Below are positions 1-27,449 of a stretch of DNA of 30,126 nucleotides, in pieces. Under the pieces are notes generated by a model that did no database searches, was not told where the DNA came from, and worked only from the letters and a program-made list of their open reading frames with translations. The stretch is from a virus. The stretch is taken from positions 1 through 30,126 of IMG/VR virus record IMGVR_UViG_3300047554_000378; one strand, 5' to 3'. A program made the position numbers and the translations under genes. Numbering within the stretch: the first letter of the stretch is position 1; each line of letters starts with the position of its first letter.

Positions 1-112
1 CCCCACTATGCTATACTTCAACCCTAAAATTTCTTGCTAGTATCTCCACTCCGCTTCCTCTTTTAACCTTAGGAGCCAAGACGATTTCGCCCCAAACTGT
101 TAGACTTCTTAC
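1..112. other. Left-edge sequence without an assignable gene
   Basis: One plus-strand frame stays open from base 3 to a TGA at 115-117 and could be the tail of a gene that starts outside the window, but nothing in its translation is recognisable. The last bases hold the -10 element listed at 101-106. I see no other supported feature. Confidence 0.3.
101..106 (+). promoter_or_regulatory. -10 element TAGACT for a leaderless start at 113
   Basis: TAGACT is followed by exactly six bases (TCTTAC) and then the ATG at 113, so the expected transcription start falls on the A of the start codon. The preceding TGT gives an extended -10 (TGnTAGACT). No good -35 is visible. The same geometry recurs at seven other starts in this window. 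Confidence 0.55.
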
Positions 113-349
113 ATGATTGACGACCAGAGAACTCCACTTCAGCGAACGCTCGAACGCCTCGAGCTTTGCCGTGAAGTCATTAAGGACGTCCACCAAGACC
201 TCGAAATCCCAGAGAACCCAGAGCACAAAGCAGACATTTACCTCTCTATAGAGGAGCTTGCACGAGAGGTTTTTCACCTCCTAAATACAGTCAACGACCA
301 CGTATGGGGGCCTCCAGAAGACCCAGACGGAGAAGACGAGGACCTCTAA
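113..349 (+). CDS. Small acidic hypothetical protein
   Basis: This 78-residue acidic protein has no motif I recognise. Its first 60 residues look helical and amphipathic, and it ends in a run of Asp/Glu (PDGEDEDL). The ATG has no Shine-Dalgarno sequence but sits six bases after a TAGACT hexamer, which fits a leaderless mRNA. It is followed 44 bases later by the large secreted coiled-coil protein gene on the same strand. Function unknown. Confidence 0.6.
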   Translation: MIDDQRTPLQRTLERLELCREVIKDVHQDLEIPENPEHKADIYLSIEELAREVFHLLNTVNDHVWGPPEDPDGEDEDL

Positions 350-355
350 ATCCCT

Positions 356-361
356 TACAAT
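356..361 (+). promoter_or_regulatory. Possible -10 element TACAAT before the coiled-coil protein gene
   Basis: TACAAT lies 32 bases before the ATG at 394, between the two genes. No convincing -35 is present. A clear Shine-Dalgarno (AGGAG, 384-388) precedes the start, so unlike its neighbour this gene would be translated from a leadered mRNA. Confidence 0.3.
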
Positions 362-393
362 AGAAGAGGGAGAGCTTTCCACCAGGAGCTCAA

Positions 394-3192
394 ATGTCTT
401 TCAAGTACAAAAAAGGACCGCTGTTTTTCACAACGGCCCTAATTTTTGCTACGCCTATTTGTATAGCGCAAGCAGCACTGCTTCCTAGCGGCGCTTCTTA
501 CGGATTGCCTGTCTCAACGAAACAACAAACGCATACGCAAAAGCAAGCACTACAGGCGTTGCTACGCCCAGCAGGTAGCTTCCTAAGTCAAAACCCTCAA
601 ACGATACAGTCATCTTCAATTCCTTCTTTAGCGGATATTACAAGTCTAGAGGATGCAATCGAAAATGTCAAGGACACACTTCTAACTCTTAGTAAGAAGT
701 CTCCATCTGACCCAGCTAACGCCGAAATCATCCAATCTCAAATTCAGACAGCCCAAAGCAGACTCAGTCTTCTGACCTCTAAGCTCTCCGAACTTAAGAC
801 CGAGTACACCAACTACGTAAAAGCCGAAGCCGCTCTTAACGCAGTACTAAAGAAGTACCAGCAGGCACAGCAAACGGAAAGCTCACTCACTCAAGTTAAG
901 ACCGTTGCCCAGACTTCCTACGAACTAGCGGTTCAGGCTCTAGAAGCAGCCAAGACGGAAGTTACTAGGCTCACGCTCCTACGCGACACTGCCCTTGCAG
1001 AGAAGAACGCTGCCCTACTAGAAGCACAGACAGCAATCAACAACCTTACTGACGCCGAGGCTGCCTTACTCACAGCCCAGTCAGATTACAACCTTGCGCT
1101 CGAGACTAGACAAACAGCTCAAAATGTTCTAAACACAAAGCAGGAACTTCTCACTAACAAAGCAAACTCCCGTGACGCGGCCGTACAGGCTCAAATACAG
1201 GCAAATTCCAACTTTGAATTAGCGTATGAAGCTCTCGACCAAGCACAAACTAATTACGACACCCTGCTGATTCCAGACCCTACGTGGACAATACCTACTC
1301 AACTTGTTCAGCACACTAGACAAGTAGCCAACACCAGACTTGTTCCATACACCGAACTAGTTCAGCGCACGGGCTACGTCTTCAACGAGTCATCCAACAT
1401 TCTTCCGCCACTGTCCGCGACTCAGTGGACAGGCGCAGGCACGGGCTTTCAAGGCTCACAGCCATCAATCAACGAGGGCATTCTCAAGTTCTCTTACATG
1501 AACCAAACGGTTACCTATCAGACCAACGCAAACCTATCAGGCACATTAACCCTAACGGTTGACGTCAAAAACCTAGACCAGAACCGTAACCAGCAGGATA
1601 CCTACGAACTTCGTCTAACAACTTACGACGCATGGGGCAACGTTAATGGCGAGGCGTATTACTACGGAAACAACTGGCACGACTGGAACACGAAAACAGT
1701 AGAAGTCACCCCATCATCTCAAGTGGCTTCATACAAAGTTGACCTGACAGGTTTCGACGCAGGTTACTGGTACGGAACTTATGGACCAGAAATGCGTAAC
1801 CCAAGACTGTCTGGCTACGTAACAACCGAGGTAACTTACTTCGAGGAAGTCACCACTCTTGTTGAAGAGACCTTCTTTACCGAGGAAATCTATTACACCG
1901 AAGAGCCAGTTCTATCTCAGGGAACCATCCAAGTTCAGATTAATGAAGGTGGTCAGGCAACATTTACCGCCCCTCAAGGCGCAGTCTTTGTTTCCAGCAA
2001 CCTACGCTACGAAGCTAAGGACCGCCCTGAGTGCGGCGCAAACATTCAACCAAGTGTCAACGGACTCAACCAAGTAACCATACAAGCACTCAACTCAGTC
2101 TGGGGTGACCCTTGTGGTGGATGGTACAAGCACGTAACTGGAACACTCTCCTACCTAGGTCAACCAACTGCTCCACTAATCAATAACCCAGCATTGCTGC
2201 CAGCATTGCAGCAAGCACAGGAAGAGTATGACGCTGCCCTTGACGCTCTTAATACTGCCGAGGATGATATCGCGTCAGCCCAAGCAGCCTACGAAGCAGC
2301 AAGCGCACAGGAGCAAGAAGCACAGTCAGCACTAGAAGTAGCGGTTGAAGACCTAGCGGTTGCAACATCTGTACTCGACGCAGCAACTTCTACTAAGAGC
2401 AGCGCCGAAGCAACTAAGACTTCTAAAGAAGAAACGCTCACACGTAAAACCAGCGCCTTCACAACTTCACAACAAGAGTTAGATGTTGCAGCTGCAGACT
2501 TAACAAGCAAATCAACAACCGAAGCTACCACTAAGACCGAACTAGAAACTGCCACTTCCAACCTAGAAGCAGCACAGGTTACAACAACTACCACCTTCAC
2601 AGAGAGCACTGTTGCCGAGAGCACACTACTTGCGTCTAGCAAAACGCTTGCGAGTGTCTTTACCGAAACTGCCAAAGAGCCTCTGCCCGACTTAACTCCA
2701 ACCGAGCAACTTCTCATTAAGCCAGCTCCGCCAGTTGTAGAAGAAGAAGGCTCGAAGGAAATCCCTAAGGACCTTTCTGCCGAGAACCTTATGGAAGTTG
2801 ACCTCAACAAAGTAGACCCAACTGAACTTACAGAGGAGCAGGCAGAACAACTAGTTGAAGCCGCTCTCGAAACATTCGAAACTGCCGAGCAAGGTTCCGC
2901 CGAGTATGAGCAAGCTCTTGATGCTCTCTATCTCGCTGCCGAGCAAGACGACATTGTTCTAGACGAAGCTCTAGCAGCCATCCCTGGTCTTGCTGGCGCA
3001 GTAGAGGTTCTGAACTTCCTTGGCAACGCTGGTGCTGACATGTCTCCAAAGGTTCGTGAGCAGTCAGAGAAAGTCGTTGTAACAGCAGTGGTTGCAGCTG
3101 GTGTAGCGGTTCAGGCAGCAGCAGGTGCTGCTACAAGTGCAGCCGTCTCGTCTTCCGCTCCTTCAGGCGGTTCAAGAAGAATAGGAAAGTAA
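394..3192 (+). CDS. Large secreted coiled-coil protein with central beta domain
   Basis: This 932-residue protein begins with a Sec-type signal peptide: basic residues, a hydrophobic stretch over about residues 9-25, and an AQA|A cleavage site near residue 27. Residues about 70-290 and 600-790 are Ala/Gln/Glu/Thr-rich long helices, almost certainly coiled coils. Between them, about 297-595, is a Tyr/Trp/Thr-rich beta region that may be a jelly roll or carbohydrate-binding fold. The last 40 residues are Ala/Val-rich and hydrophobic before a basic tip (RRIGK), which could anchor in or cross a membrane. A clear AGGAG site precedes the ATG. It overlaps the next gene, for a small membrane protein, by one base and heads the cluster that ends with the endolysin. 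Possible roles are a spanin-like envelope bridge, superinfection exclusion or a surface adhesin; I do not recognise the family. Confidence 0.75.
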   Translation: MSFKYKKGPLFFTTALIFATPICIAQAALLPSGASYGLPVSTKQQTHTQKQALQALLRPAGSFLSQNPQTIQSSSIPSLADITSLEDAIENVKDTLLTLSKKSPSDPANAEIIQSQIQTAQSRLSLLTSKLSELKTEYTNYVKAEAALNAVLKKYQQAQQTESSLTQVKTVAQTSYELAVQALEAAKTEVTRLTLLRDTALAEKNAALLEAQTAINNLTDAEAALLTAQSDYNLALETRQTAQNVLNTKQELLTNKANSRDAAVQAQIQANSNFELAYEALDQAQTNYDTLLIPDPTWTIPTQLVQHTRQVANTRLVPYTELVQRTGYVFNESSNILPPLSATQWTGAGTGFQGSQPSINEGILKFSYMNQTVTYQTNANLSGTLTLTVDVKNLDQNRNQQDTYELRLTTYDAWGNVNGEAYYYGNNWHDWNTKTVEVTPSSQVASYKVDLTGFDAGYWYGTYGPEMRNPRLSGYVTTEVTYFEEVTTLVEETFFTEEIYYTEEPVLSQGTIQVQINEGGQATFTAPQGAVFVSSNLRYEAKDRPECGANIQPSVNGLNQVTIQALNSVWGDPCGGWYKHVTGTLSYLGQPTAPLINNPALLPALQQAQEEYDAALDALNTAEDDIASAQAAYEAASAQEQEAQSALEVAVEDLAVATSVLDAATSTKSSAEATKTSKEETLTRKTSAFTTSQQELDVAAADLTSKSTTEATTKTELETATSNLEAAQVTTTTTFTESTVAESTLLASSKTLASVFTETAKEPLPDLTPTEQLLIKPAPPVVEEEGSKEIPKDLSAENLMEVDLNKVDPTELTEEQAEQLVEAALETFETAEQGSAEYEQALDALYLAAEQDDIVLDEALAAIPGLAGAVEVLNFLGNAGADMSPKVREQSEKVVVTAVVAAGVAVQAAAGAATSAAVSSSAPSGGSRRIGK

Positions 3193-3422
3193 TGAAAGAA
3201 AAAACCATGCTCATCCTTGCATCAGGAGTGATGATAGCAATTCTGTTTGCCATCGTTGGCGACTATGTAGTAGCAGCAATCGAAACACAAACAACTGGAG
3301 AACCTGTAGAGGTTTCGTCAGATGTTATGACCCTAGTTCAAACAGCCCTCGGTGGAATCATTGGTATTCTCGGTGGCTACTTTGGTGCAAAAGCACAAAT
3401 GAATAAGAAAGAAGAAGAGTAA
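3192..3422 (+). CDS. Small two-helix membrane protein, holin candidate
   Basis: The 76-residue product has a hydrophobic segment at about residues 6-28 and a second, Gly/Leu/Ile-rich, at about 47-66, then a charged tail (KKEEE). Two membrane helices, small size and a place upstream of a peptidoglycan hydrolase suit a holin, but sequence alone cannot prove pore formation. Its ATG overlaps the upstream stop as TAATG, and its own stop overlaps the next ATG the same way, so translation is likely coupled. Confidence 0.65.
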   Translation: MKEKTMLILASGVMIAILFAIVGDYVVAAIETQTTGEPVEVSSDVMTLVQTALGGIIGILGGYFGAKAQMNKKEEE

Positions 3423-3607
3423 TGAAGAAGTTCCTAGTAGGTCTTTTCAAAGACATCATCGACCAGGCGTGGACACTCCTAGGTATGGCTGTTGCTTGGC
3501 TTGTACTAGAAGGCTCTGCCAAAGAGTTGACTGGAAACCTAATCCTAATCACACTCGCAATTTGGGTTCTCACCTACCCACTACGCCGCGAGAAGGATGA
3601 CGAGTAA
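3422..3607 (+). CDS. Small membrane protein, second holin or antiholin candidate
   Basis: This 61-residue protein has two hydrophobic stretches, about residues 14-30 and 38-53, and a charged C-terminus (RREKDDE). It is embedded by TAATG overlaps between another small membrane protein and a basic protein. Paired small membrane proteins before an endolysin often act as holin and antiholin; which is which cannot be decided here. Confidence 0.6.
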   Translation: MKKFLVGLFKDIIDQAWTLLGMAVAWLVLEGSAKELTGNLILITLAIWVLTYPLRREKDDE

Positions 3608-3825
3608 TGCTAAAGCGTTTCAAGCTCTACCTACAGTTTCGTAAGGAAGTTGACCGCGTTGCTCTCAAGAAGGAAGCAGTGGCTTGGACCAAGGCTTACT
3701 TTAAGAAGCGCAGGATTCCTAACTGGACAGCAGAGTACCAGAACACTTTTGCAATCCATGTTCAGAAGTACATGGCAGCCTACATCCACACCTACGCCAA
3801 AATCAAACTGAACCAAGAGCGGTAA
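3607..3825 (+). CDS. Small basic hypothetical protein
   Basis: The 72-residue, Lys/Arg/Tyr-rich product looks mostly helical and has no membrane segment or motif I recognise. It starts in a TAATG overlap with the preceding membrane-protein gene, so it belongs to the same translation unit. Its TAA stop doubles as the first bases of a TAAAAT -10 hexamer for the next gene. Confidence 0.6.
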   Translation: MLKRFKLYLQFRKEVDRVALKKEAVAWTKAYFKKRRIPNWTAEYQNTFAIHVQKYMAAYIHTYAKIKLNQER

Positions 3826-3828
3826 AAT
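3823..3828 (+). promoter_or_regulatory. -10 element TAAAAT for a leaderless start at 3835
   Basis: TAAAAT, then six bases (ATACCT), then the ATG at 3835. The hexamer reuses the stop codon of the upstream gene. There is no Shine-Dalgarno before this ATG, which supports a leaderless transcript starting the DUF6321-like and endolysin pair. Confidence 0.5.
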
Positions 3829-3834
3829 ATACCT

Positions 3835-4959
3835 ATGTCTGATGAGAATTTGGTACCCGAAGAGCGTGACTTAGCGAACGCTCTAATTACCATTGCCGAA
3901 AAGTATGGCAAGTTCAACGAGGACCAAACAGGCATCTGGGCTGATTATCATGAGCCAGAAGATAACCCTTACGCCGAGATGGGCGTTAAGTGTGGCAACT
4001 GCGTTCTATACCGCGGTGGCGAAGAGTGTGCTGTTGTTGCTTTTAAGGTTGACCCAAACGGTTACTGCCGTTTTGCGGTTCTACCTGATGGCACGGTTGA
4101 CCCAAGCAAAGCACCTGAAGGCAAGACTCCTGGCAACCACGAAGTCCTAACTGCCACTGCAGGTTCTAAACCAGCTCCTAAGAAGGACCAGATTAAGGGT
4201 TCAGACAAGAACAAAAAGGGTTCTGCTGATACTGGTAAGGGCGTCGACTTCACCGAGGCAATCATCACCGCCCTTGAGAAGAAGGTTACAGAACACAATA
4301 AGAAGGCTCCAGCTGGACGCAAGGTTACTCTTGCTAAGTTGAAGGCTGTCTATCGTCGCGGCGCAGGTGCGTTCTCAACTTCTCACCGCCCAGACCAGAA
4401 CCGAAACTCGTGGGCAATGGCTCGCGTTAATGCGTTCTTGAAGCTTGTTAAGTCTGGTAAGCCAACCAACCCTAAGTACACTTCAGACAACGACCTGCTT
4501 CCAAGAATGCACCCGCGCTCCAGCGAAGCTTCTAACTTCTCACCACTAATCGCATCTCTTGTTGCAGCTGCAAACACCGAAGAGTGTCCACCTGCAACTC
4601 AAGACATTGTTCTTAATATTGAAAATCGCCAGAACGCCATCGACAATGTTGGCTATGGCCCACTAAACCCAGACGAACCAAACGAAGAGTTCTGGCAAGA
4701 GAAGGCTGACCGCTGGAAGACAACTCCAGTAGAAGCAAGCAAGAGCATCTGTGGCAACTGCGTCTTCTTTGTTAGAACCCCTAGCATGCTTGACTGCATC
4801 TCTAGCGGTATCGAAGAAGGCGGTTCTGGAGAACAAAACGCTTGGGACGCAATCGACCAAGCAGAACTAGGTTTCTGTGAAGCACTCGACTTCAAGTGTG
4901 CTGCTTCTAGAACATGTAACGCATGGGCTGCTGGTGGCCCCATAACAGAGGAAAAGTAA
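3835..4959 (+). CDS. Cysteine-rich protein with DUF6321-like domain
   Basis: The 374-residue product has three parts. The N-terminal part (to about residue 85) carries a CGNC pair and two further cysteines ending in GYCRF. The middle (about 137-222) matches the pattern I associate with phage DUF6321 proteins: a helix, then RRGAGAFSTSHRP and NSWAMARVNAFL. The C-terminal part repeats the CGNC motif near residue 306 and adds four more cysteines. The paired cysteine groups suggest duplicated metal or Fe-S sites. Related domains occur in structural or head-associated proteins of environmental phages, but a lysis or packaging role cannot be excluded. It overlaps the endolysin gene by one base (TAATG) and has its own leaderless-type promoter. 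Confidence 0.6.
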   Translation: MSDENLVPEERDLANALITIAEKYGKFNEDQTGIWADYHEPEDNPYAEMGVKCGNCVLYRGGEECAVVAFKVDPNGYCRFAVLPDGTVDPSKAPEGKTPGNHEVLTATAGSKPAPKKDQIKGSDKNKKGSADTGKGVDFTEAIITALEKKVTEHNKKAPAGRKVTLAKLKAVYRRGAGAFSTSHRPDQNRNSWAMARVNAFLKLVKSGKPTNPKYTSDNDLLPRMHPRSSEASNFSPLIASLVAAANTEECPPATQDIVLNIENRQNAIDNVGYGPLNPDEPNEEFWQEKADRWKTTPVEASKSICGNCVFFVRTPSMLDCISSGIEEGGSGEQNAWDAIDQAELGFCEALDFKCAASRTCNAWAAGGPITEEK

Positions 4960-6077: not shown

Positions 6078-6150
6078 GTCTAGACAAGGCATAAAGGTGC
6101 ATACTTGAGACGAGTCTCATAGCGCGTAATAAAAGCCCCTAGGAAGAAGT

Positions 6151-6190
6151 CCCTCCGCCACCAACTGACAAGGCGGGGGGATTTCTTTTT
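6151..6190 (+). terminator. Rho-independent terminator after the lysis cluster
   Basis: CCTCCGCC pairs with GGCGGGGG (8 bp, one G-U) around a short loop and is followed by ATTTCTTTTT. It ends plus-strand transcription after the endolysin gene, just at the 3' end of the opposing glycosylase gene. Confidence 0.75.
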
Positions 6191-6665
6191 AGGCTACGTG
6201 CGTCGGCCAGTAGTAGTTGCACTTCTCACAGCACGGCTCGTTGTTGCGGTCTGCAACAGCGCGAACCATGTCTACATAGTAGATAGGGTCTTTGCGGTAC
6301 AGGTTTGCTCGGTGCGTAGTTACTACGCGACCCATGGTATCCATGTTCAGGAACCACTGCGGAAGTCCATCACCCCAACGGTCGATGTTATCTAACGTCA
6401 GCGCCTTGAGGTTTGCTACGTTCTTATCAGTCTTGATGCCACGCTTGTCTGCTTCACGAACACAGGTGAATACATACTCAAGCAGAGCCTTCTCGTGACC
6501 TCTCCACATTTTGACAGCAGGGTGATTACGCCATCCAGCGTGAGGGTCGTCATTCGATAGCACCTTGAGGATTTGGTAACCCTCGAGAATCTGCTTGTTG
6601 AGACGCTTGCTGTCCAGGGCTTTTGCGGACTCCTGGAAGTCCTTGAATGGTAGAAATGTTTGCAT
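6189..6665 (-). CDS. Pyrimidine-dimer DNA glycosylase-like protein (MSMEG_6728 / Pyr_excise family)
   Basis: The 158-residue product matches the pattern of the actinobacterial MSMEG_6728 group related to T4 endonuclease V: MQTFLPF followed by the signature SAKALDSKRLNKQ near residues 13-25, then GWRNHPAVKMWRGHEKALLEY. Members are thought to cut at UV-induced pyrimidine dimers and start base-excision repair. It ends in a cysteine pair (CCEKC) not typical of T4 DenV. It is the last gene of the long minus-strand region and has its own promoter, with the start codon six bases after the -10, so its mRNA is probably leaderless. Family assignment is firm; activity is inferred. Confidence 0.8.
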   Translation of the reverse strand: MQTFLPFKDFQESAKALDSKRLNKQILEGYQILKVLSNDDPHAGWRNHPAVKMWRGHEKALLEYVFTCVREADKRGIKTDKNVANLKALTLDNIDRWGDGLPQWFLNMDTMGRVVTTHRANLYRKDPIYYVDMVRAVADRNNEPCCEKCNYYWPTHVA

Positions 6666-6671
6666 ACTCAG

Positions 6672-6701: not shown

Positions 6702-6702
6702 G

Positions 6703-8104: not shown

Positions 8105-8805
8105 TAGGGAGCAACCCTTCCGTTCTTGTTAAATGCTTCGTAAGTTAGAGGCATCTTCTCTGCGAAGAACTCCTCCATCTGCTCCGCGACCATTTCAATC
8201 TCTCGCTGTGGGAAGCTAGGGAAGTGCGTCCCCTCACGCATGGTACGCAACGACAAGAAGTTCATTAGCGAACGAGCGTTCATGGTCACATACATAGACG
8301 AGTAAGTGTTGACAGGAAGCACAACTCGAGCGACTTCTCTAGCAATACCTGCGTCTAGCATTTTTTTGTAAGCCATGTAGGACTCAGTGGTGACTCGCTT
8401 GACTGTTGATGGAGTCATAGCCTTCTGCTCATAAGTGCCTTCTTCAAAGACATAAGCACCTGGCTTACCAACTTGCTTTAGCTTGCGGTCCTCACCTGGC
8501 ACATAGAAGACTGGCGACAGTTCCTTGTAGCGACCGCTTTCCTCATTGTACGAAGCAATGCGGTGACGCATGAACTCACGGAATACGAATATAGGAGCTT
8601 CAATGTAGAAGGTGAAAGCGTTGTGCTCAAATGGAGAACCGTGACGGTCGCGCATGAGGTAGTTGATTAGGCCAGCTTCTTTACTTGCGTCTACGCTATT
8701 GGATGCGCCAGTGCTCACACGAGCAGCCATAGTAACTGCCGAGTCTGACGCCATCGACTGCATTAGCTTTACAGTCATGTCCGAGCGGAATGTGATATCT
8801 GTCAT
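8104..8805 (-). CDS. thyX: FAD-dependent thymidylate synthase ThyX
   Basis: The 233-residue product carries the ThyX signature RHRxxSxNExSGRY at residues 80-93. ThyX makes dTMP from dUMP with methylene-tetrahydrofolate, FAD and NADPH, and is unrelated to ThyA. Length is normal for the family. It supports dTTP supply along with the RNR encoded at 15564. There is no strong Shine-Dalgarno; the ATG lies six bases after TAGACT, itself overlapping the stop of the upstream glycosyltransferase gene, so an internal leaderless mRNA is possible as well as readthrough from upstream. Confidence 0.95.
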   Translation of the reverse strand: MTDITFRSDMTVKLMQSMASDSAVTMAARVSTGASNSVDASKEAGLINYLMRDRHGSPFEHNAFTFYIEAPIFVFREFMRHRIASYNEESGRYKELSPVFYVPGEDRKLKQVGKPGAYVFEEGTYEQKAMTPSTVKRVTTESYMAYKKMLDAGIAREVARVVLPVNTYSSMYVTMNARSLMNFLSLRTMREGTHFPSFPQREIEMVAEQMEEFFAEKMPLTYEAFNKNGRVAP

Positions 8806-8811
8806 ACCTAC

Positions 8812-8817
8812 AGTCTA
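8812..8817 (-). promoter_or_regulatory. -10 element TAGACT for a leaderless thyX start
   Basis: On the minus strand TAGACT is followed by GTAGGT and the ATG of thyX at 8805. The hexamer begins with the stop codon of the glycosyltransferase gene. No clear -35 is seen. Confidence 0.45.
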
Positions 8818-9483
8818 TCGAATCTGGTAAACAGTCTCTTTGTGGTGACGGACTTTCACAGTTGAATCTAAGTAAGTCTTGAAGCCATTCCTGCGGGCAT
8901 TGATACACCACGAGTAGTCTTCTCCAACGTTTAGTTCGAAGTCTAGGTGCTGCCACTTGATACGTTCCATCAGGAACCAAGGGCGGTCACACTTCTCAAA
9001 CACTCCCGACTTCATAGCAATAAAGCCAAAGCCAAGTCCATAGACCTCGTGCAGGGTTTCGTCCAGCATCATAAAGTCTTGCTCGCGAACAACGGTTGGC
9101 TGTCCTGCGCCATCGAAGAAAGCTACAGCCACGCGGCCATCAGGGGCAGTCTGATACATACCGCCGACAACGTCCAAATCACTCTCATAGATTTTCTTAA
9201 AAGCTTCTACAGTCCACTCAACGTCCGAGTCAATCCAGAAGATTTTGCCATAGGTATAAGCACCACCGCCGACTTCGCGGGTGTCCCAATTCGGGACATA
9301 GGAGTCAAGAGCTGTAGCCTCTCGCGTGCTCGAGATTAGCGACCCCTGCTTGTTTAGGAACTTGTAGGTCTTACCCTCAGACTCCAACCAGCGAATCGTA
9401 TCGACCAAGCTCGCTGTGTATTCAGCGTGCAACAGCTTTCCAGGTGTTGCAATTAGTACGTCATAGTGCGGCTTCTCGGTCAT
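8815..9483 (-). CDS. GT-A type glycosyltransferase
   Basis: This 222-residue protein has the pattern of small GT-A fold glycosyltransferases: an N-terminal beta strand (YDVLIATPGK), an IDSDVEW stretch around residue 76 that supplies the DxD-type metal and nucleotide-sugar site, and GEDYSWCINARRNGF near the C-terminus. Phages use such enzymes to glycosylate DNA, virion proteins or host surface. A second, differently built GT-A protein is encoded at 27376. Its ATG overlaps the upstream stop by four bases (ATGA), with AGGACTAAG as ribosome site. Donor and acceptor cannot be told. Confidence 0.75.
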   Translation of the reverse strand: MTEKPHYDVLIATPGKLLHAEYTASLVDTIRWLESEGKTYKFLNKQGSLISSTREATALDSYVPNWDTREVGGGAYTYGKIFWIDSDVEWTVEAFKKIYESDLDVVGGMYQTAPDGRVAVAFFDGAGQPTVVREQDFMMLDETLHEVYGLGFGFIAMKSGVFEKCDRPWFLMERIKWQHLDFELNVGEDYSWCINARRNGFKTYLDSTVKVRHHKETVYQIR

Positions 9484-10806: not shown

Positions 10807-10808
10807 CG

Positions 10809-11582: not shown

Positions 11583-11864
11583 TTAGGAGTGTATCCCGCT
11601 AATTGGCTCTACCCAGTCGCGAATAACAGCCATTAGCTCATTTACGTTTAGCTCCAAAAGACGGTCATAGTCCTTCGGTTCTAGAGCGTGTTTCAGTGCT
11701 TTAACTACTCCCTCCATCTGCGTCATTGACTCAGGGGACTGCAATCCCTGTAGAGCTTCAAACACAATAGGAAACGGAAGTCTGGTAAAGCTAGTAGCAA
11801 CTGCTCGGAAAGCAGGAGTGTCAATCTCCACGAATGGAGCTTCGCTTGATTCAAAACTTGTCAT
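11583..11864 (-). CDS. Hypothetical protein, possibly tail-assembly-chaperone-like
   Basis: The 93-residue product is helical. Its second half, ALEPKDYDRLLELNVNEL then AVIRDW, resembles short phage tail-assembly chaperones, in which a DYERL-type helix is common. It sits among small early-type genes rather than tail genes, so I treat the likeness as weak. It overlaps the upstream gene by one base (TAATG). Confidence 0.5.
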   Translation of the reverse strand: MTSFESSEAPFVEIDTPAFRAVATSFTRLPFPIVFEALQGLQSPESMTQMEGVVKALKHALEPKDYDRLLELNVNELMAVIRDWVEPISGIHS

Positions 11865-12106
11865 TAGTCAATCCTACCTTTGTAGATTACGGTGTCAATG
11901 ATTTTGTCTAGGACTTTCGCAACAGTGCTGCCAGCAGCCCACTTACGTCTCTCCTGACGGACGACCAGAAGAATCTTCTCCTCCTGCTCTTTGAGGACAC
12001 CTCGGAGAATCTCTTCTGCAATGCCGTCAATAGTTACTTCTTTAGTTTTTTTATCACAGCAGACGCATTCAGGGCCAGTGTAGGTTGGTTCTTTGAACTC
12101 TCTCAT
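11864..12106 (-). CDS. Hypothetical protein with CxxC motif
   Basis: Start taken at the ATG at 12106 (MREFKEPTY), which overlaps the previous stop as ATGA; 80 residues. Near the N-terminus is CVCC, possibly metal-binding, followed by a long charged helix (about residues 27-70). No family recognised. Confidence 0.55.
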   Translation of the reverse strand: MREFKEPTYTGPECVCCDKKTKEVTIDGIAEEILRGVLKEQEEKILLVVRQERRKWAAGSTVAKVLDKIIDTVIYKGRID

Positions 12107-12583: not shown

Positions 12584-12613
12584 AAGGTAGCACACATTGG
12601 TGGTGGATGTCAA
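12584..12613 (-). promoter_or_regulatory. Promoter TTGACA-18-TACCTT before the HicA-like gene
   Basis: Minus strand: TTGACA (12613-12608), an 18-base spacer, and TACCTT (12589-12584). The start codon lies about 35 bases downstream with a Shine-Dalgarno, so this mRNA is leadered. It would drive the small-gene operon, tRNA-Asp, tRNA-Thr and the cupin gene. Confidence 0.55.
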
Positions 12614-12633
12614 ATCCATTTTAAAAGTTTGTT

Positions 12634-13432
12634 GTGGTGCACGACTGACTAGGTCGCCACCACCGCCCCACTACCGAACTACCTCAGGGGAACTAGCACC
12701 ATTGCGAGCCTTTTCCGACTACTAACGGCTTTGGTATGCCGATTTCCAACCTTCGGGGGAACCACCTACACCACCCTCTTAACGTCGGTGGTCCACGCTA
12801 GAGCAGTCACGCTCAAGATATTAAGGCTCGCAGGAAACCCTGCCAAACGAGAAGAATCCATGGCCATGGTAATCTTCCGAGCCTTAGCGGACTGCGAGGA
12901 ATCGCACCTCGGCAACTCCATACGGAGTACCTCTAGCTACCTTATCCGCGGTGGTCAGGTAGCACAGTCCATCAGGTCGTATTCGCAATGCGGGAGACCA
13001 AACCCTTAACTAGCCGTTAGGTCTTGCGGTTACTCGGATTACTCTCTGCATAGCCGTAAACGGGTTTATTACATTTATCCTAGCACCTGCCGCAGCAAAG
13101 GGTGCTAAGACCAGCCGTTCCGTAGGCTGCCATCAATCTGCGGTCGATGGCTCACGAAGGGAACGTCTGTTTGCTGCCTCACCTGGACTCGAACCAGGAA
13201 CTTACGAGTTAACAGCTCGTCACTCTGCCAATTGAGTTATAAGGCAATGCACAGACTGCTCCCGATTGGGAACTCCCTATCCTAAGAGCAATCTGGCAAG
13301 GCGGGTCACCCTTGCGGGATTCCTGCATTTGGTACAGGGATTTGCGTACTGCGATAGTTACTAACACCTTCGGTTCTTTCGCGTCCCTGCTCTGTCTCGG
13401 CTGAGTTAGTTGTCGCTACACCGAGCACATTG
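12634..13432 (-). ncRNA. Large, highly structured non-coding RNA (GOLLD-like candidate) with nested tRNA-Asn
   Basis: About 800 bases without a believable gene carry many perfect helices on the minus strand. From the 5' side: ACTAAC/GTTAGT, CAGGGA/TCCCTG, GCAAGG/CCTTGC, GTCTGT (13256-13251) pairing with ACAGAC (13170-13165) around tRNA-Asn and extended by GGGA/TCCC, TAGCACC/GGTGCTA, ACTCC/GGAGT, and TGCGAGCCTT (12832-12823) pairing over 10 bp with AAGGCTCGCA (12712-12703). The first of these bases can instead pair with AAGGCTCG at 12885-12878. A final bulged hairpin (12663-12634) followed by a T4 run may be the 3' end. Size, a nested tRNA, phage context and closeness to tRNAs fit GOLLD RNA; ROOL or a new class is possible. 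It probably shares the tmRNA transcript. Exact ends are uncertain. Confidence 0.7.
13174..13246 (-). tRNA. tRNA-Asn (anticodon GTT), nested in the large structured RNA
   Basis: Acceptor TGCCTTA/TGAGGCA (one G-U), anticodon stem ACGAG/CTCGT with loop CTGTTAA (anticodon GTT), and T arm CCTGG TTCGAGT CCAGG are standard. The discriminator is G, as for Asn. CCA is not encoded. Its flanks, GTCTGT and ACAGAC, pair with each other, so the tRNA sits at the tip of a helix of the surrounding RNA. Confidence 0.92.
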
Positions 13433-13782
13433 TGGAGATGGGGGGAGTCGAACCCCCGTCCTGACAAAGTCTATTTGTTCTTCTACACGCTTAGGCAGTT
13501 TGCTTTGTGTTCCCGATGGTTGACCTGCCAGACATCGAGTCAGATTCAATTACGGCTTGAATCGTGGCCGTGGTGCAAGTTGTCCTATTTGTTTAAAGCC
13601 TGACTGCCCACTTAGGACTAGTGCTTTGTCAGGGGTTCTAGAAGCTTTGTCGGTTAAGACTAGGCAGCTAGAGCGAATGCAGAACGAGATTCAGCATTTA
13701 TTTTTTGTAGCGGTTTTACAAGACTCCGCTATCTTGGCGTGCTTCACCAAACTTCAGATGCCAGTCGAAACCAGGCATCCCC
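13433..13782 (-). ncRNA. ssrA: Transfer-messenger RNA (tmRNA)
   Basis: The 5' end GGGGATG pairs with CATCTCC at the 3' end, forming the tRNA-like acceptor. The 5' TGGTTTCGAC motif and the 3' T arm (GGGGG TTCGACT CCCCC) are typical of tmRNA. The tag frame, 13695-13660, reads AESRSAFALAA then TAG; the ALAA end is the usual proteolysis signal. Length, about 350 nt, is normal for one-piece tmRNA. CCA is not encoded. tmRNA frees stalled ribosomes and tags unfinished proteins. It is followed directly by the large structured RNA and preceded by a TATAAT promoter element. Confidence 0.93.
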
Positions 13783-15083: not shown

Positions 15084-15278
15084 CTAAACCCAGGTTTTCT
15101 TTGTGCTGAAGTCACCGCCCTTGAAGTTAATCTTCGGTGCGCTGAATACTCTCAATAGTTTACCGTCGCAACCTTCTTCAGCGCAAGTTAGCTGCTTCTG
15201 CTCCTCGTCCATTCCGCGAGATTCTGAGAAAGTGTGCTCTGAATTTTCCGAGCATTTGTAGTCATAGATAATTGCCAT
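15084..15278 (-). CDS. FmdB-like zinc-ribbon protein
   Basis: This 64-residue product resembles FmdB-type small proteins: IYDYKC at the start, a second cysteine group CAEEGCDGKLLRVFSAP, and the ending NFKGGDFSTKKTW like the usual FKGSGFY. The first knuckle is altered: where CxxC is expected there is CSENSEH, so His or nothing replaces the second cysteine. The ATG is six bases after TAGAAT with no Shine-Dalgarno, just after the terminator of the nrdH gene. It heads the unit that continues to the WhiB gene. Confidence 0.7.
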   Translation of the reverse strand: MAIIYDYKCSENSEHTFSESRGMDEEQKQLTCAEEGCDGKLLRVFSAPKINFKGGDFSTKKTWV

Positions 15279-15284
15279 TTGTCA

Positions 15285-15290
15285 ATTCTA
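15285..15290 (-). promoter_or_regulatory. -10 element TAGAAT for a leaderless start at 15278
   Basis: Minus strand TAGAAT, then six bases (TGACAA), then ATG. It lies directly after the terminator of the RNR-NrdH unit, exactly where a new promoter would be needed. The -35 is not recognisable. Confidence 0.55.
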
Positions 15291-15296
15291 CCGCAT

Positions 15297-15323
15297 AAAA
15301 GAAAACCCCTCCCGAAGGAGGGG
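15297..15323 (-). terminator. Strong rho-independent terminator after nrdH
   Basis: On the minus strand CCCCTCC and GGAGGGG pair around a UUCG tetraloop and are followed by TTTTCTTTT. It ends the RNR-NrdH transcript 14 bases after the nrdH stop. Confidence 0.92.
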
Positions 15324-15336
15324 CTTTCAGCAGTTA

Positions 15337-19828: not shown

Positions 19829-19837
19829 GGAAAATAA

Positions 19838-21280: not shown

Positions 21281-21309
21281 TCCTAGCACACAAACAATAG
21301 AGGTTCGCC

Positions 21310-24300
21310 TTGGCTAGAAAGTTTCTCACACCTGTAGGTCTGCCGTCAGGAGCATCCAACCCTGCGACAGGCTCTGCTGGTGACCTGTTTTATAACACCA
21401 GTGATGGGTTTATTTACAACCACAACGGCACTTCATGGTCTCAAATTGTTGGAGACGGTATGCCAGCTGGCGGAACTACAGGTCAGCTCCTATCCAAGAT
21501 AAACGGCACAGACTACAACACCGAGTGGGTTGACGAGACCTCTATTGCCACCTCCACTGTTAAGCACCTCGTTAAAAACGACTCTGGCGTAACGCTTTCC
21601 AAAGGAACCGTTGTCTACACAAAGAGCGCTAACGGAACTAACATCCTTGTCGATAAGGCAATCGCAACCAATGACACCTACTCTTCTCAGGTGCTTGGAT
21701 TCCTAGAATCAGACCTTGCAGCTAACGAAACTGGCTACTGTGTAAACAATGGCCTAGTAACAAACATCAATACCGACGGAGCAACTGCTGGAGACCCAGT
21801 ATGGCTGTCGGGAACCACTGCTGGTGGTTTTGTCACTGGTGCTGGAAATAAGCCAGTTGCTCCAACTCACCTCGTATATCTTGGTGTCGTCACTCGCGCT
21901 AACTCAAATACTGGCGAGATTTTTGTCCACATCAGCAACGGCTGGGAACTCGACGAACTCCACAATGTTTTGATTGATGGAACTCCTGCTGACAATGAAG
22001 TACTGGCTTACGACTCTGGTTCAAGTCTCTGGAAAAATCAAACAGCAGCAGAGGCAAACCTTTCGGTCGTCGGACACACTCACAGTATTGCAAATGTAAC
22101 GAGCTTGCAAGATTCCCTGGATGCAAAAGCCAATCTCGCTGGAGCATCTTTCACTGGAAACATTTCAACCACTGGCGATGCAAACGTTGCTGGAAAACTA
22201 AATATTACCGCATCCTCGGGCAACGAGGGTGGAGAACTTTTTCTAGCAGCTCCAGCCGCAAACACTTCAATCACCACTGGTGTAAACATTGACATCTACC
22301 AAAACAAACTACGTTTCTGGGAAGCAGGTGGAACTAACCGCGGATACTACGTAGACATTACAGGTGGAGCATCAGCCGTTGGAACTAGCCTGACTGGTGG
22401 TTCTACAGGCGCTATGAACTACGCTCAAACTGAGGGAACCAAGCAATCTGCTATTTCTTCAGTAGGAACAACTATCGTTAGCGTGTCGATTACTACTAAC
22501 GGTTACCCAGTTCTTGTAAACGTCACTGGTGACGTAGAGAACAACTCTGCGGGCGGCTGGGTAGTTCTACAACTATATAGAGGGTCTACCGCTATCGGAA
22601 ACCCTGTTCACGCCGAGTCATCTGCTGGTTCAGAAAACGTTCCATATGCCCTCAGTGTTATTGATGCCCCTTCTGCTGGAACCTACACCTATGCTTTGAA
22701 ACTAAACAACGCAGCAGGTGGAACCTTTAACTTCGGTGAGTCCGATGGTCCAGTAATTACTGCGATTGAGTTGTCGGGTCCTAAGGGTGACACTGGTTCT
22801 GCTGGTGCAAACGGAACTAGCCCTAACGCATTTACAACTATCTCGACTCCGTCTGGAACTAACCCTGTAGCTGACTCGACTTCAGATACTCTTACCTTTA
22901 CTGCTGGTACTGGTATCAGCATTACTGGAGATGCAACCGCAGATTCGATTGCCATTGAGACAAACGGAGCTTCGGCAAACGGTGCGTCAACACTTGTGCT
23001 CAGAGATTCGACTGGAAACTTCTCGGCAAACGTAGTCACCGCATCCACATTCTCTGGCTCTGGAGCATCTCTTACAGCCATCCCTGCAGCTAACGTAACT
23101 GGGACACTAACCAGCACCGTCCTTGGTAACTCAACCGCATATGTTGGAACTACCGCGATTGCCCTAAACCGAGCCTCGGCAAACCAGGGTCTTACTGGAA
23201 TCTCGAGCGTTACGTTCCCTGGTTCTACTAGCGGAACAATCCAACTTCTTGCTAACGCTGCCGCTGGAACTGGAACAGTACTCACTCTCCCAGCAACTAC
23301 TGGAACCCTAGCGCTGACATCTCAGATTCCAACAGTAAATGACGCAACACTAACTCTGGCTGTCTCTGGTGTAGGTCTATCTGGTAGCCAAACCTTCACC
23401 GCAAATCAATCAACTGGTGCTACATTCACCGTAACTAGCAATGCTAACTCAGCTAACGGAGCTTCCACTATTGTGGCCCGAGATGCATCAGGTAACTTCT
23501 CAGCAAATACAGTCACCGCAACCACGTTTTCTGGTTCTGGTGCGTCCCTAACTAACGTTCCTGGTGCAAACGTAACGGGAACACTTACCTCTACAGTTCT
23601 AGGTAACTCGACTGTCTACATTGGAACTACCGCAGTCGCTCTTAACCGCTCAACTGGAAACCTAGGTCTCACTGGAATTTCGAGTGTTACACTCCCTGGC
23701 TCAACATCGGGAACGATTCAACTTCTTGCTAACGCTACCGCTGGTACAGGAACTGTAGTAACCCTCCCCGCAACTACAGGAACAGTTGTAACTACAGGCG
23801 ATTCTGGAACCGTCACTAACACGATGCTAGCTGGGTCAATCGCTAATGCTAAGTTGGCTAACACCGCAGTATCTCTTGGAGCGCAAACCCTAACTCTCGG
23901 TGCAGCAGCTACAACAACTATTTCTGGTATGACTAGCGTTAGCTCGTCCACACTAACCTCTACTGTTGCAACTGGAACTGCGCCGTTTACCGTCACATCG
24001 ACAACTCAGGTGACTAACTTGAAGGCAGAGTTTGCTGGAACTGCAGACCTTGCTAACGCTGTAGCGGTAGGAAACGTGAGTGGCTTGGGAGCAAACGTTG
24101 CTACCTTCCTAGCAACACCTAGCTCGGCTAACTTACTAAACGTAATGACAACCGAGACTGGAACTGGCAACCTAGTATTCTCAACAAACCCTTCGCTCGA
24201 TGGTATAACACTAAACGCTGGAACATCCTTCATCATCGAAGATGCAGACAGCGTTGTCGGTCGTGTAATTGGTTCTGGAAACCTGTTCTATATTCAAGCT

Positions 24301-25131
24301 GGAGCAGATTCAAATGACAGCACTGGTCACATTTTTATGGGCCGCTACGCAAATGCTAACCCAGTTGCCAACATCACACTAAACGCTACTACCACAAACG
24401 TAGCCACCAATCTTCGCGTAGGTAACGACCTGACTATGGTTGGAAGCGCCACCCTAAGAACTGGTGCTTCTACAGCTGGAGACGCTCCACTCTACTTTGC
24501 CTCAGGAACAAACCTGTCGGCTATTGAAGCTGGAGCCGTCGAGTATGACGGAAACGTGTTCTATGGAACCCCGAAGGTAACAAGCACTACTTATGGTAGA
24601 GGTTTGATTCCGACCACTATGGTCTACTCAAACAACACTTCGCCTACAACCACCACTTCAACAGGTGGTGCCACCATTACCCTGAATCCGCTCGGAACCG
24701 CGGTAACTCTTCCAGCTGGCTCGTTTGAAGTAGAGGGATTTGTAGTAGTTCAGGTGAGCAGCACGGTAAACCCAGCGTCTACCCTAAGATTTGGATTTAC
24801 TGGTACAGGCGTAGCTTCAATGCTTTTTGATGAGAAATACAACGCTAACCAGGCAACCTTAACTACTATTGCTGCTCCTACAAATGGTGCCAGAACCTCG
24901 GTAGGAACAGTAAGCGTAGTGAGTAGCCCGACTAGCGGATACTACACACGAGTTTGGTTTAAAGGAATTATCAGAACTTCTTCTACAGCCGCATTTAACC
25001 CTATCTTCACGGTAGTAAATGGTTCTACACCAGCAACAGCCACTCTGACAGCGCAGCCAGACGGATTTATGAAGGTAACCCCACTAAACGGAACTTACAC
25101 TGCAGCAGTTAACATTGGAGGCTGGGCTTAA
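21310..25131 (+). CDS. Large tail fibre / receptor-binding protein
   Basis: The 1273-residue protein starts with TTG after AGAGG. Its first 50 residues match the same pattern as the preceding fibre (FLT, then G-x-x-Y-N-T and NGTSW), suggesting a common attachment element. Near residue 490 is a brief collagen-like run (GPKGDTGSAGANG). A unit of about 115 residues beginning NGAST and running to LPATTGT occurs twice, at about 557-671 and 716-830, nearly identical, so it arose by duplication. The last 200 residues are a non-repetitive beta domain (from about 1085) likely to be the receptor-binding tip. Confidence 0.85.
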   Translation: MARKFLTPVGLPSGASNPATGSAGDLFYNTSDGFIYNHNGTSWSQIVGDGMPAGGTTGQLLSKINGTDYNTEWVDETSIATSTVKHLVKNDSGVTLSKGTVVYTKSANGTNILVDKAIATNDTYSSQVLGFLESDLAANETGYCVNNGLVTNINTDGATAGDPVWLSGTTAGGFVTGAGNKPVAPTHLVYLGVVTRANSNTGEIFVHISNGWELDELHNVLIDGTPADNEVLAYDSGSSLWKNQTAAEANLSVVGHTHSIANVTSLQDSLDAKANLAGASFTGNISTTGDANVAGKLNITASSGNEGGELFLAAPAANTSITTGVNIDIYQNKLRFWEAGGTNRGYYVDITGGASAVGTSLTGGSTGAMNYAQTEGTKQSAISSVGTTIVSVSITTNGYPVLVNVTGDVENNSAGGWVVLQLYRGSTAIGNPVHAESSAGSENVPYALSVIDAPSAGTYTYALKLNNAAGGTFNFGESDGPVITAIELSGPKGDTGSAGANGTSPNAFTTISTPSGTNPVADSTSDTLTFTAGTGISITGDATADSIAIETNGASANGASTLVLRDSTGNFSANVVTASTFSGSGASLTAIPAANVTGTLTSTVLGNSTAYVGTTAIALNRASANQGLTGISSVTFPGSTSGTIQLLANAAAGTGTVLTLPATTGTLALTSQIPTVNDATLTLAVSGVGLSGSQTFTANQSTGATFTVTSNANSANGASTIVARDASGNFSANTVTATTFSGSGASLTNVPGANVTGTLTSTVLGNSTVYIGTTAVALNRSTGNLGLTGISSVTLPGSTSGTIQLLANATAGTGTVVTLPATTGTVVTTGDSGTVTNTMLAGSIANAKLANTAVSLGAQTLTLGAAATTTISGMTSVSSSTLTSTVATGTAPFTVTSTTQVTNLKAEFAGTADLANAVAVGNVSGLGANVATFLATPSSANLLNVMTTETGTGNLVFSTNPSLDGITLNAGTSFIIEDADSVVGRVIGSGNLFYIQAGADSNDSTGHIFMGRYANANPVANITLNATTTNVATNLRVGNDLTMVGSATLRTGASTAGDAPLYFASGTNLSAIEAGAVEYDGNVFYGTPKVTSTTYGRGLIPTTMVYSNNTSPTTTTSTGGATITLNPLGTAVTLPAGSFEVEGFVVVQVSSTVNPASTLRFGFTGTGVASMLFDEKYNANQATLTTIAAPTNGARTSVGTVSVVSSPTSGYYTRVWFKGIIRTSSTAAFNPIFTVVNGSTPATATLTAQPDGFMKVTPLNGTYTAAVNIGGWA

Positions 25132-25298
25132 TGGATAGATTTCACTGGTTTTGCTATTGCCGCACTGAAGGCTGTTTAAATGCAGGAAATGCCAACTACA
25201 TAATTACTGAAGAAAACGTTGCACCAAACCCTGTGTGCGGCAACTGTTCAGTGGCAATCACCGAAATAGTTTCAGTAGAGGACCCTAACCCTCTTTAG
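25131..25298 (+). CDS. Tiny zinc-ribbon protein after the tail fibre
   Basis: The 55-residue product has CYCRTEGC (C8, C10, C15) and CGNC (C36, C39), a small metal-binding ribbon. Its ATG overlaps the tail-fibre stop (TAATG), supporting translation from the fibre mRNA. Its last 14 bases overlap the opposing gene at 25285. Function unknown. Confidence 0.6.
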   Translation: MDRFHWFCYCRTEGCLNAGNANYIITEENVAPNPVCGNCSVAITEIVSVEDPNPL

Positions 25299-25434
25299 GT
25301 CTCTGCCCTGGACGAGGCTTGTATTCGGGTCTAATAAAAACAACTCCATCGTGCTTCATTTCGCATATCCGAGCCAACGAATCCACTACAAAAAGTTCCT
25401 TGCAGACGCTGCATTGGTTATTCGGTTTGCTCAT
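25285..25434 (-). CDS. Small Cys/His protein
   Basis: Start at the ATG at 25434, supported by CAGGAGAACG. The 49-residue product has CSVC (residues 8-11) and a later C-x3-H (CEMKH), a likely zinc site, then a basic Pro/Arg-rich end. It converges on the preceding plus-strand gene with 14 bases of overlap. A GATAAT hexamer at 25460-25465 on the minus strand could be its -10. Confidence 0.55.
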   Translation of the reverse strand: MSKPNNQCSVCKELFVVDSLARICEMKHDGVVFIRPEYKPRPGQRPKEG

Positions 25435-25472
25435 CGTTCTCCTGTGAAGTTGTAACTTAATTATCTCACAGC

Positions 25473-25502
25473 TTGACATGAGCCAGATTTTTGTCCTAGA
25501 AT
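25473..25502 (+). promoter_or_regulatory. Consensus promoter TTGACA-18-TAGAAT
   Basis: TTGACA (25473-25478), an 18-base spacer and TAGAAT (25497-25502) make the strongest promoter by eye in the window. Predicted start is at about 25509, where the sequence reads ATG CAT TAA. Confidence 0.8.
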
Positions 25503-25508
25503 GTGGTT

Positions 25509-25570
25509 ATGCATTAAGTTGTTCCAGCGAGACGACATGCGACGAAAGCCACTCTTCGGAGTGGTTTTTT
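25509..25570 (+). ncRNA. Candidate small RNA of about 62 nt
   Basis: The strong promoter at 25473-25502 is followed within 60 bases by a strong terminator and no real gene, which predicts a short RNA. Its 5' end would be AUG CAU UAA, a two-codon frame at the very start; a 16-codon frame begins at 25538 but runs through the terminator. It may be a regulatory RNA, or a leader that controls readthrough into the gene at 25597. Confidence 0.55.
25549..25570 (+). terminator. Rho-independent terminator with UUCG loop
   Basis: CCACTC and GAGTGG pair around TTCG and are followed by six T's; outer bases GACGAAA and TTTCGTC can extend the stem. It would end the short RNA started at about 25509. Confidence 0.88.
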
Positions 25571-25584
25571 CGTCTCTACGGGTA

Positions 25585-25590
25585 TAGACT
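25585..25590 (+). promoter_or_regulatory. -10 element TAGACT for a leaderless start at 25597
   Basis: TAGACT, six bases (TTTAAT), then ATG. It follows the terminator directly, giving the downstream genes their own transcript start. -35 not evident. Confidence 0.5.
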
Positions 25591-25596
25591 TTTAAT

Positions 25597-25878
25597 ATGA
25601 GTGATGACACCAACAACAGAAAGCTGTATCGAGTCGACTGGAAGTACATCGACCTAGATAAAGGTGTAGATGAAGATTACGCCTACATCGGAGCAGATAG
25701 TCCAGTTGATGCAACTAACGGCATCCCTGGGACTGACTTTGTAGTTAGAGAAGCAACCAGAGAAGAGATGGAAGCCTACGTCGCTGGATATGAAGACGGT
25801 TACGACATTGCAATTATCAGCACCAGGATTGAAGACTTAGATGCTGGCCTAGAGCTAGAGATTGAAGACGAGGACTAA
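25597..25878 (+). CDS. Acidic hypothetical protein
   Basis: The 93-residue product is strongly acidic with an alpha/beta look: LYRVDWKYIDLDKGVDEDYAY, then REATREEMEAYVAGYEDGYD, ending EIEDED. The first stretch suggests a small one-domain protein. I know no family. It has no Shine-Dalgarno and is probably leaderless. Its stop is one base before the ATG of the kinase fusion gene. Confidence 0.6.
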   Translation: MSDDTNNRKLYRVDWKYIDLDKGVDEDYAYIGADSPVDATNGIPGTDFVVREATREEMEAYVAGYEDGYDIAIISTRIEDLDAGLELEIEDED

Positions 25879-25879
25879 T

Positions 25880-26773
25880 ATGAAGGTATACATCGCAGGT
25901 CCAATGAGCGGCTACGAAGACTGGAACTTTCCCGCTTTCTTTGAAGCCGAGCGACAGCTGCTTGAGCTAGGATACGAAGTAATCAATCCAGCACACAACG
26001 ACGGAGCAACTGTTCAAGAAGCTCTGGAATCAGCTGGCTCACCTGACCGACCAAACAACATGTGGTCTTGGTACATGCGTCGCGACCTACCGCACGTTAT
26101 GGAGGTGGACGCCCTCTGTGTCCTCCCAGGTTGGCAGAAGTCAAAGGGAGCAAAACTGGAAGTCCACGTTGCAACTGCCATCGGCATCCCGCTAATGGTT
26201 CTGAAAGACGGCAAACTTGTTCCACGTGTAACCTGCATCGGCATCTCTGGCTGGGCGAGAGCTGGCAAAGATACTATTGCTGACCACATGGTGGAGAACC
26301 ACGGTTATGTCAAGATGTCTCTAGCGTCACCAATGAAGGACGCTCTCTATGCCTTAGACCCTCGCATCACCGTTAATGAAGTTCAAAACACTTCTCTTCG
26401 AGTTGCAATTGATGTTTACGGCTGGGAGGGAATCAAAGAACGCAGCCCAGACATCAGAGGACTACTTCAGCGTTTTGGAACTGAAGTTGGTCGAGTCCAG
26501 TGGGATGAAAACTTCTGGGTAGACATGGCACTTAGCCGCATTCCAGACGGTAGCAAGGTTGTATTTGCTGACGTTCGATTCCCTAATGAGGCTAACGCCA
26601 TCAAGGAGCTAGGCGGAGAGATTTGGCGTGTAGAGCGTTTTGACTCAGGCCCAGCAAATAACCACATCTCTGAGCACGCACTTGACGACTACGCATTTGA
26701 CCACCTAATTCGTAACTACAACGGACTCGAGTCGCTCTACCAGACAGTTACCACAATTCTTACTGACTTATAA
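25880..26773 (+). CDS. DUF4406 domain fused to deoxynucleoside monophosphate kinase
   Basis: Start taken at the ATG at 25880, after GAGGACTAAT; 297 residues. Residues 1-110 match DUF4406, a nucleoside 2-deoxyribosyltransferase-like fold (KVYIAGPMSGYEDWNFPAF and LPGWQKSKGAKLEVHVA). From about 118 comes a P-loop kinase (GISGWARAGKDT, K130) with ADVRFPNEA further on, as in phage T4-like dNMP kinases, which phosphorylate dNMPs to dNDPs. The fusion may couple nucleotide salvage or base handling to phosphorylation. The stop codon overlaps the -10 hexamer of the recombinase gene. Confidence 0.8.
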   Translation: MKVYIAGPMSGYEDWNFPAFFEAERQLLELGYEVINPAHNDGATVQEALESAGSPDRPNNMWSWYMRRDLPHVMEVDALCVLPGWQKSKGAKLEVHVATAIGIPLMVLKDGKLVPRVTCIGISGWARAGKDTIADHMVENHGYVKMSLASPMKDALYALDPRITVNEVQNTSLRVAIDVYGWEGIKERSPDIRGLLQRFGTEVGRVQWDENFWVDMALSRIPDGSKVVFADVRFPNEANAIKELGGEIWRVERFDSGPANNHISEHALDDYAFDHLIRNYNGLESLYQTVTTILTDL

Positions 26774-26774
26774 T
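26769..26774 (+). promoter_or_regulatory. -10 element TATAAT for a leaderless GTG start at 26781
   Basis: A perfect TATAAT overlaps the kinase stop codon and is followed by six bases (TAGTAA) and the GTG of the recombinase gene. -35 is weak. Confidence 0.6.
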
Positions 26775-26780
26775 TAGTAA

Positions 26781-27449
26781 GTGGATGAAAACAAAGAACT
26801 AGCACTACTTTACGCTCGAGTATCGACGCAACTTCAAGTCAATGACGGCGTCTCACTCGATGTTCAAGAGCGTCAACTCCAACAAGCAGCCGAACTAGCT
26901 GGATTCACCAATACAGAAATAGTTCGTGAAGAAGGCCGCTCTGGTAAGTCTATCGCTGGGAGGCCAGCACTCACCGACGCTTTGAAGCGTTTAGATAAAG
27001 GTGAAGCAAAAGTTTTGTTTGTTACCCGCATCGACCGCCTGGCTCGTTCGACAAAAGACTTTCTAAGTATCATTGACCGAGCAAATACAAACGGTTGGCG
27101 ACTAATCATGCTTGACCTTAATTTAGACACCGCAACTTATCAGGGCCGATTTGTTGTAACCATTATGTCTGCCCTGGCAGAGATGGAGCGCGGAATTATC
27201 GCTGAGCGACAGCGTGATGTCCACAAAGACCGCCGCGCTCGCGGAATCGTATGGGGCGTAGATATGGGACCACGTAACAAAACCCCTGAAGAAATCAAAC
27301 AGAGAATTCTGTCTGAAAGAGCTTCAGGGGCTTCGTTTAAAACAATTGCCGACGGCCTAAACCGCGACGAGATTCCTACTCAGAATCTTCGGAAGTGGTA
27401 TCCGACGACTGTGAAGAATCTGTTTGACTCTCTACAGGAACCTCAGTAG
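26781..27449 (+). CDS. Small serine recombinase (resolvase/invertase family)
   Basis: The 222-residue protein has the serine recombinase catalytic domain: YARVSTQLQ with the nucleophile S15, GRSGKSIAGRPAL, VTRIDRLARS and a Glu-rich dimer helix (ALAEMERGIIAERQRD), then a helix-turn-helix-like end (ASGASFKTIADGLN). Its size suits resolvases and invertases rather than large phage integrases. It may resolve genome multimers, flip a segment or mediate integration; no recombination sites were found. Start is GTG without ribosome site. Its last 74 bases overlap the opposing glycosyltransferase gene. Confidence 0.88.
   Translation: MDENKELALLYARVSTQLQVNDGVSLDVQERQLQQAAELAGFTNTEIVREEGRSGKSIAGRPALTDALKRLDKGEAKVLFVTRIDRLARSTKDFLSIIDRANTNGWRLIMLDLNLDTATYQGRFVVTIMSALAEMERGIIAERQRDVHKDRRARGIVWGVDMGPRNKTPEEIKQRILSERASGASFKTIADGLNRDEIPTQNLRKWYPTTVKNLFDSLQEPQ

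Follow-up and report, generated by a model that had tools for sequence, protein, structure and literature searches.

Predicted sigma-A-type promoters placed directly at the start codons of leaderless genes in a group of uncultured, probably freshwater, actinophages

The window analysed here comprises all 30,126 bases of IMGVR_UViG_3300047554_000378, a virus record and not a bacterial genome. With related contigs as long as 137 kb, it probably represents only part of the genome of an uncultured phage. Its phage genes include those for an M23 peptidase, a pyrimidine-dimer glycosylase, an N6/N4 DNA methylase, ThyX, WhiB, a glutaredoxin, a class II ribonucleotide reductase, a serine resolvase and a primase/helicase. 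The RNA genes are three tRNAs and one tmRNA (13432-13782, minus strand, tag AESRSAFALAA), which gave short matches only when four actinobacterial genomes were compared. Around tRNA-Asn and adjoining the tmRNA lies a long stretch with no called genes (12594-13430), where an Rfam search matched nothing besides these two RNAs and which could house an undescribed structured RNA. The nearest cellular homologues of ThyX are actinobacterial, most of them from Microbacteriaceae (Aquiluna, Rhodoluna and relatives) and Demequina, with identities of 66-73%. WhiB genes occur in 27 of 28 large related records as well as in the window. The host is likely a freshwater actinobacterium. Most of the large related phages (records G300-G327) carry two or three WhiB genes each. 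The closest named complete relative by reductase, at 76% identity, is Actinomycetia phage DSL-LC01, from a lake water sample. Comparisons of tRNA and tmRNA similarity singled out no one host.

A sequence-only reading of this DNA had proposed leaderless promoters at eight places where a TAnnnT hexamer stands six bases ahead of a start codon, that is, with its first base at -12. All eight hexamers were found at exactly that spacing. A leaderless promoter is the best supported reading at seven of them, and the eighth, at 25509, does not precede a gene. None of the seven gene starts has a Shine-Dalgarno (SD) sequence of at least four matching bases, in agreement with the claim that most lack one. 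The hexamers had also been called too many for chance, and this held: 8 of the 41 listed starts (two of these start positions are not good starts) carry one, against a family background of 2.2% (P = 2.7e-6). Any single site in the window could nevertheless be a chance occurrence, about one being expected in 41 starts.

Three of the seven sites re-use the stop codon of the preceding gene, as had been noted and as follows from the coordinates. At the DUF5824 gene (3835-4959, plus strand), the arrangement is AAATCA (3800-3805), 17 nt, TAAAAT (3823-3828) and ATG (3835), the TAA of the hexamer being the stop codon of gene 3607-3825. At thyX (minus strand), TAGACT (8817-8812) precedes the ATG at 8805 and its TAG ends gene 8815-9483; the box is found in 5 of 21 homologous upstream regions. 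At the serine resolvase gene (plus strand), TATAAT (26769-26774) includes the TAA of gene 25880-26773 and precedes a GTG at 26781, with an ATG at 26785 as alternative start; 5 of 36 homologous upstream regions have the box. The other predicted leaderless starts are those of a 78-aa gene (113-349, plus strand; TAGACT at 101-106, 6 nt, ATG at 113; box in 10 of 12 distinct homologous upstream regions), the pyrimidine-dimer glycosylase gene (minus strand; TTGACA at 6701-6696, 18 nt, TACAGT at 6677-6672, ATG at 6665), a Zn-ribbon gene (minus strand; TAGAAT at 15290-15285, ATG at 15278; 14 of 46) and gene 25597-25878 (plus strand; TAGACT at 25585-25590, ATG at 25597; 5 of 5). Upstream of the Zn-ribbon gene, the T tract of an intrinsic terminator hairpin enters the hexamer, so that terminator, promoter and start fall within about 50 nt (15276..15325). 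A good TTGACA -35 box is missing at six of the seven gene starts, as it is at most sites generally. One further possible leaderless start, which the sequence-only reading had missed, has a perfect TTGACA, 16 nt, TAGGAT, 6 nt and an ATG at 11864 (span 11862..11892, minus strand). It is ambiguous because it lies within the 3' end of the upstream gene and overlaps an SD-like AGGA.

The hexamer associated with position 25509 belongs to a different kind of transcription unit. The frame opening there reads ATG CAT TAA, only two codons, and its ATG is not kept in homologues; it was rejected as a gene start. A promoter made of TTGACA (25473-25478), 18 nt and TAGAAT (25497-25502), on the plus strand, precedes a putative structured RNA of about 63 nt (about 25509-25571), consisting of a bulged hairpin and a terminator. 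The TTGACA/-10 promoter, but not the ATG, has been retained in four distinct homologous loci (L083, L085, L006 and L041); the hairpin and terminator are also kept in homologous loci, and the fold z-scores range from -3.1 to -4.9. The RNA has no match in Rfam, where the only hits in the window were the tRNAs and the tmRNA. From its conservation and predicted fold, the 25509 hexamer is read as the promoter of a conserved small non-coding RNA. The predicted leaderless start of gene 25597 follows directly 3' of the small-RNA terminator, with terminator, promoter and ATG again within about 50 nt (25549-25599, plus strand).

The pattern was then counted in 205 related viral loci (3.2 Mb), collected by homology to the reductase, a DUF4406/kinase protein, the peptidase and DUF5824. 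Genes were called with our own program, which uses codon usage and start-codon type only and never the upstream sequence. TAnnnT was found at exactly -12 in 288 of 2,996 non-redundant gene starts (9.6%), and at 0.6-3.5% (mean about 2.2%) at the remaining offsets from -40 to -6. In a control with 10,270 internal in-frame ATGs it stood at -12 before 1.2%. The binomial tail is about 1e-95 when homologous starts are counted as independent. The share of such starts per locus is fairly uniform (median 10%; zero in 8 of 106 related loci), and an independent set fetched with WhiB had the box at 20 of 116 starts. Search over all starts, with controls, was strongly positive in the related phages as well as in actinobacterial genomes, and the TAnnnT pattern at start codons is real. 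T4-like phages showed no enrichment (9 of 298 starts at -12, background 10.5). In DSL-LC01 the box precedes 3 of 150 annotated starts, or 5 of 130 when our gene caller was used, and these low counts indicate that the leaderless habit is not universal in the group.

Genes separated by short gaps could place a TAA or TAG near -12 by coincidence, with the offset chosen after the fact, and part of the data fits such an origin: the hexamer overlaps the stop codon of the preceding gene at three of the seven window sites, and re-use of the stop accounts for 24 starts with a 9-nt gap (in 24 of 55 the hexamer opens with the TAA or TAG that ends the preceding gene). Against it, the enrichment holds in independent data and is strong for gaps longer than 12 nt, no rise is seen at the in-frame neighbours -9, -15 and -18, and TAT or TAC opens 113 of 291 hexamers. 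An artefact of upstream stops or of reading frame was rejected on the last two observations, and chance with stop-codon coincidence, refuted for the group, is scarcely credible. The box occurs at 0.9% of the starts of overlapping genes versus 9.5-20% of the others, peaking at 20% for intergenic gaps of 13-40 nt. Among 198 long-gap leaderless starts, ten, among them the window site at 15278, have an intrinsic terminator ending 20-31 nt upstream, its T tract entering the promoter.

The sequences surrounding the hexamer have the anatomy of a promoter. A logo aligned on the hexamer has a weak TTGACA at -35..-30, T at -17, G at -14 (55%), A or G at -9, A at -8 and a pyrimidine at -1; T-17 and G-14 belong to a TRTG extended -10 element. 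The TTGACA stands 17-18 nt from the hexamer, and a match to it at five or more of six positions occurs in 33 of 304 leaderless starts and in 45 of 1275 comparison starts (P = 2e-6). With the -35 and the extended -10 at their canonical positions, the hexamer has the features of the -10 box of a primary-sigma promoter. A peak at -17 was considered as a second spacing class and discarded, since 65 of its 106 members also have the -12 box and it represents the first T of TRTG. When half of the sites were used to train a -10 matrix that was then scanned over the held-out rest, a sharp peak at -12 and a broad one at -29..-60 were separated by a valley at -14..-28. Such a profile is expected if leaderless promoters coexist with leadered ones and short leaders are few.

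The hexamer could instead be an AU-rich ribosome-binding element that replaces the SD sequence on longer transcripts and is no promoter. It lies close to where an SD would stand, and the two are inversely related: an SD of at least four bases is found at 20% of the starts with the -12 box, 56% of the others and 29% in shuffled sequence. A translation signal, however, would not be expected with -35 and TRTG promoter elements beside it, nor to be absent where genes overlap within operons. The -10 matrix also recurs at the distances of leadered promoters, a promoter of this kind also stands before a non-coding RNA, which indicates that the hexamer is a transcription signal, and the experimentally tested counterpart in Deinococcus acts as a promoter -10 region (PMC12340547). 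We consider a purely translational role very improbable.

The exact position of the first transcribed base is a separate matter. The spacing between -10 and +1 varies in bacteria, and actinobacterial genomes have a peak at -13 too, so that transcription might begin 1-5 nt upstream of the start codon and yield near-leaderless mRNAs. The single sharp peak at -12 and the pyrimidine at -1 (82% of the starts with the box versus 36% of the other starts) fit better with +1 at the A of the ATG, and initiation slightly upstream appears unlikely. ATG is the start codon in 97.6% of the starts with the box, compared to 88.5%.

Comparison of orthologues adds the evolutionary behaviour of these sites. Among homologues of the DUF5824 gene, 34 of 46 distinct upstream regions have TAnnnT at -12 and also keep the -35-like AAATCA, while mean identity over -45..-13 is just 36%. 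The glycosylase gene has the box in 9 of 21 homologous upstream regions, and all nine members of its leaderless family have a TTGACA-like -35. These alignments show the putative promoter box retained across divergent phages while the surrounding upstream DNA diverges. Box and SD are mutually exclusive among orthologues (P = 2e-6); for thyX, an SD is present in 9 of the 16 homologous upstream regions without the box. Orthologues without the box being more often SD-bearing, the same gene seems to be served in some phages by a private leaderless promoter and in others by SD-led translation.

A second -35 word may exist. In part of the leaderless set, AAATCA occupies the position of TTGACA, as at 3800-3805 in the window, and it is kept in three families (DUF5824, that of gene 113 and a third), none of which ever carries TTGACA. 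Counting one member per family, it was found in about 8 of 130 versus 3.8 expected, a weak excess (P = 0.036), and genome-wide it occurs 26 times with a 17-nt spacer versus roughly 8 at other spacings. The AAATCA class is an unproven lead. That there are two -35 classes, TTGACA and AAATCA (followed by C or G), the latter a temporal class read by a WhiB-remodelled sigma-A, we regard as rather improbable, and the redirection of sigma-A to AAATCA by WhiB is speculation. A search of 28 related records for a phage sigma factor found no Sigma70 region 2, and region-4-like matches covered just a short part of the model.

The best explanation, and in our judgement a very probable one, is that the hexamers belong to sigma-A-type promoters at which transcription begins on the A of the start codon, so that the mRNAs are leaderless. 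The hexamers would be the -10 boxes of primary-sigma (sigma-A/70) promoters, many with the extended TRTG element, read by the RNA polymerase of the host. The spacing would make the A (or G) of the start codon the first transcribed base, and the resulting mRNA would open with AUG, with neither a 5' leader nor an SD, to be translated most likely by the leaderless route common in actinobacteria. Single genes in tightly packed operons would in this way have a private promoter directly ahead of them, in some cases inside the upstream stop codon or just after a terminator. The transcription start at the start codon, the dependence on sigma-A, the mode of ribosome engagement and the host are all inferred from the sequences compared here. 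If so, uncultured, probably freshwater actinophages share the leaderless style of their hosts at about one in ten of all starts, and leaderless initiation is widespread in a virus group for which earlier predictions were confined to isolated cases. Programs that call start codons by SD only may misplace such starts in metagenomic phages, and the exact -12 box could allow the promoters of these phages to be mapped directly from their sequences.

The same peak was observed in actinobacterial genomes. TAnnnT stands at -12 and -13 in 17.6% and 8.8% of starts in low-GC actinobacterial loci and in 8.6% and 6.5% in a 400-kb stretch of Aquiluna, and at -12 in 18.1% and 13.7% in two other small low-GC actinobacterial genomes. 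The phages thus appear to use the host style with a narrower spacing. A literature search on leaderless genes of phages or of freshwater actinobacteria found no survey of this group among the open-access papers searched. TA-led genes have been described (Zheng et al. 2011, PMC3160421) as having TANNNT about 12 bp upstream in place of the SD, averaging 19.2% of genes in actinobacteria, with a TG element in some low-GC genomes. Assignment to this class is the best explanation for the predicted leaderless starts of these actinophages, where TANNNT is likewise above chance about 12 bp upstream and the SD replaced. The class was described in cellular genomes, whereas here it concerns uncultured phages and about 10% of starts; unlike that description, the phages have a sharp single 6-nt spacing and a clear TG element. 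The leaderless transcriptome of M. tuberculosis (Cortes et al. 2013, PMC3898074) shares the TANNNT -10, initiation of transcription at the start codon and the lack of an SD, although those starts were mapped by RNA-seq and the phage starts are predicted from sequence. In cluster O mycobacteriophages (the Corndog group, PMC4351075), SigA-like promoters were also predicted whose +1 coincides with the start codon's first base, but these are few per phage and in a different phage group, while here there are hundreds across many related phages. In Deinococcus (PMC12340547), a cellular system from a different phylum, TANNNT lies 6-7 bp upstream of ORFs and its function was verified by mutations in reporters.
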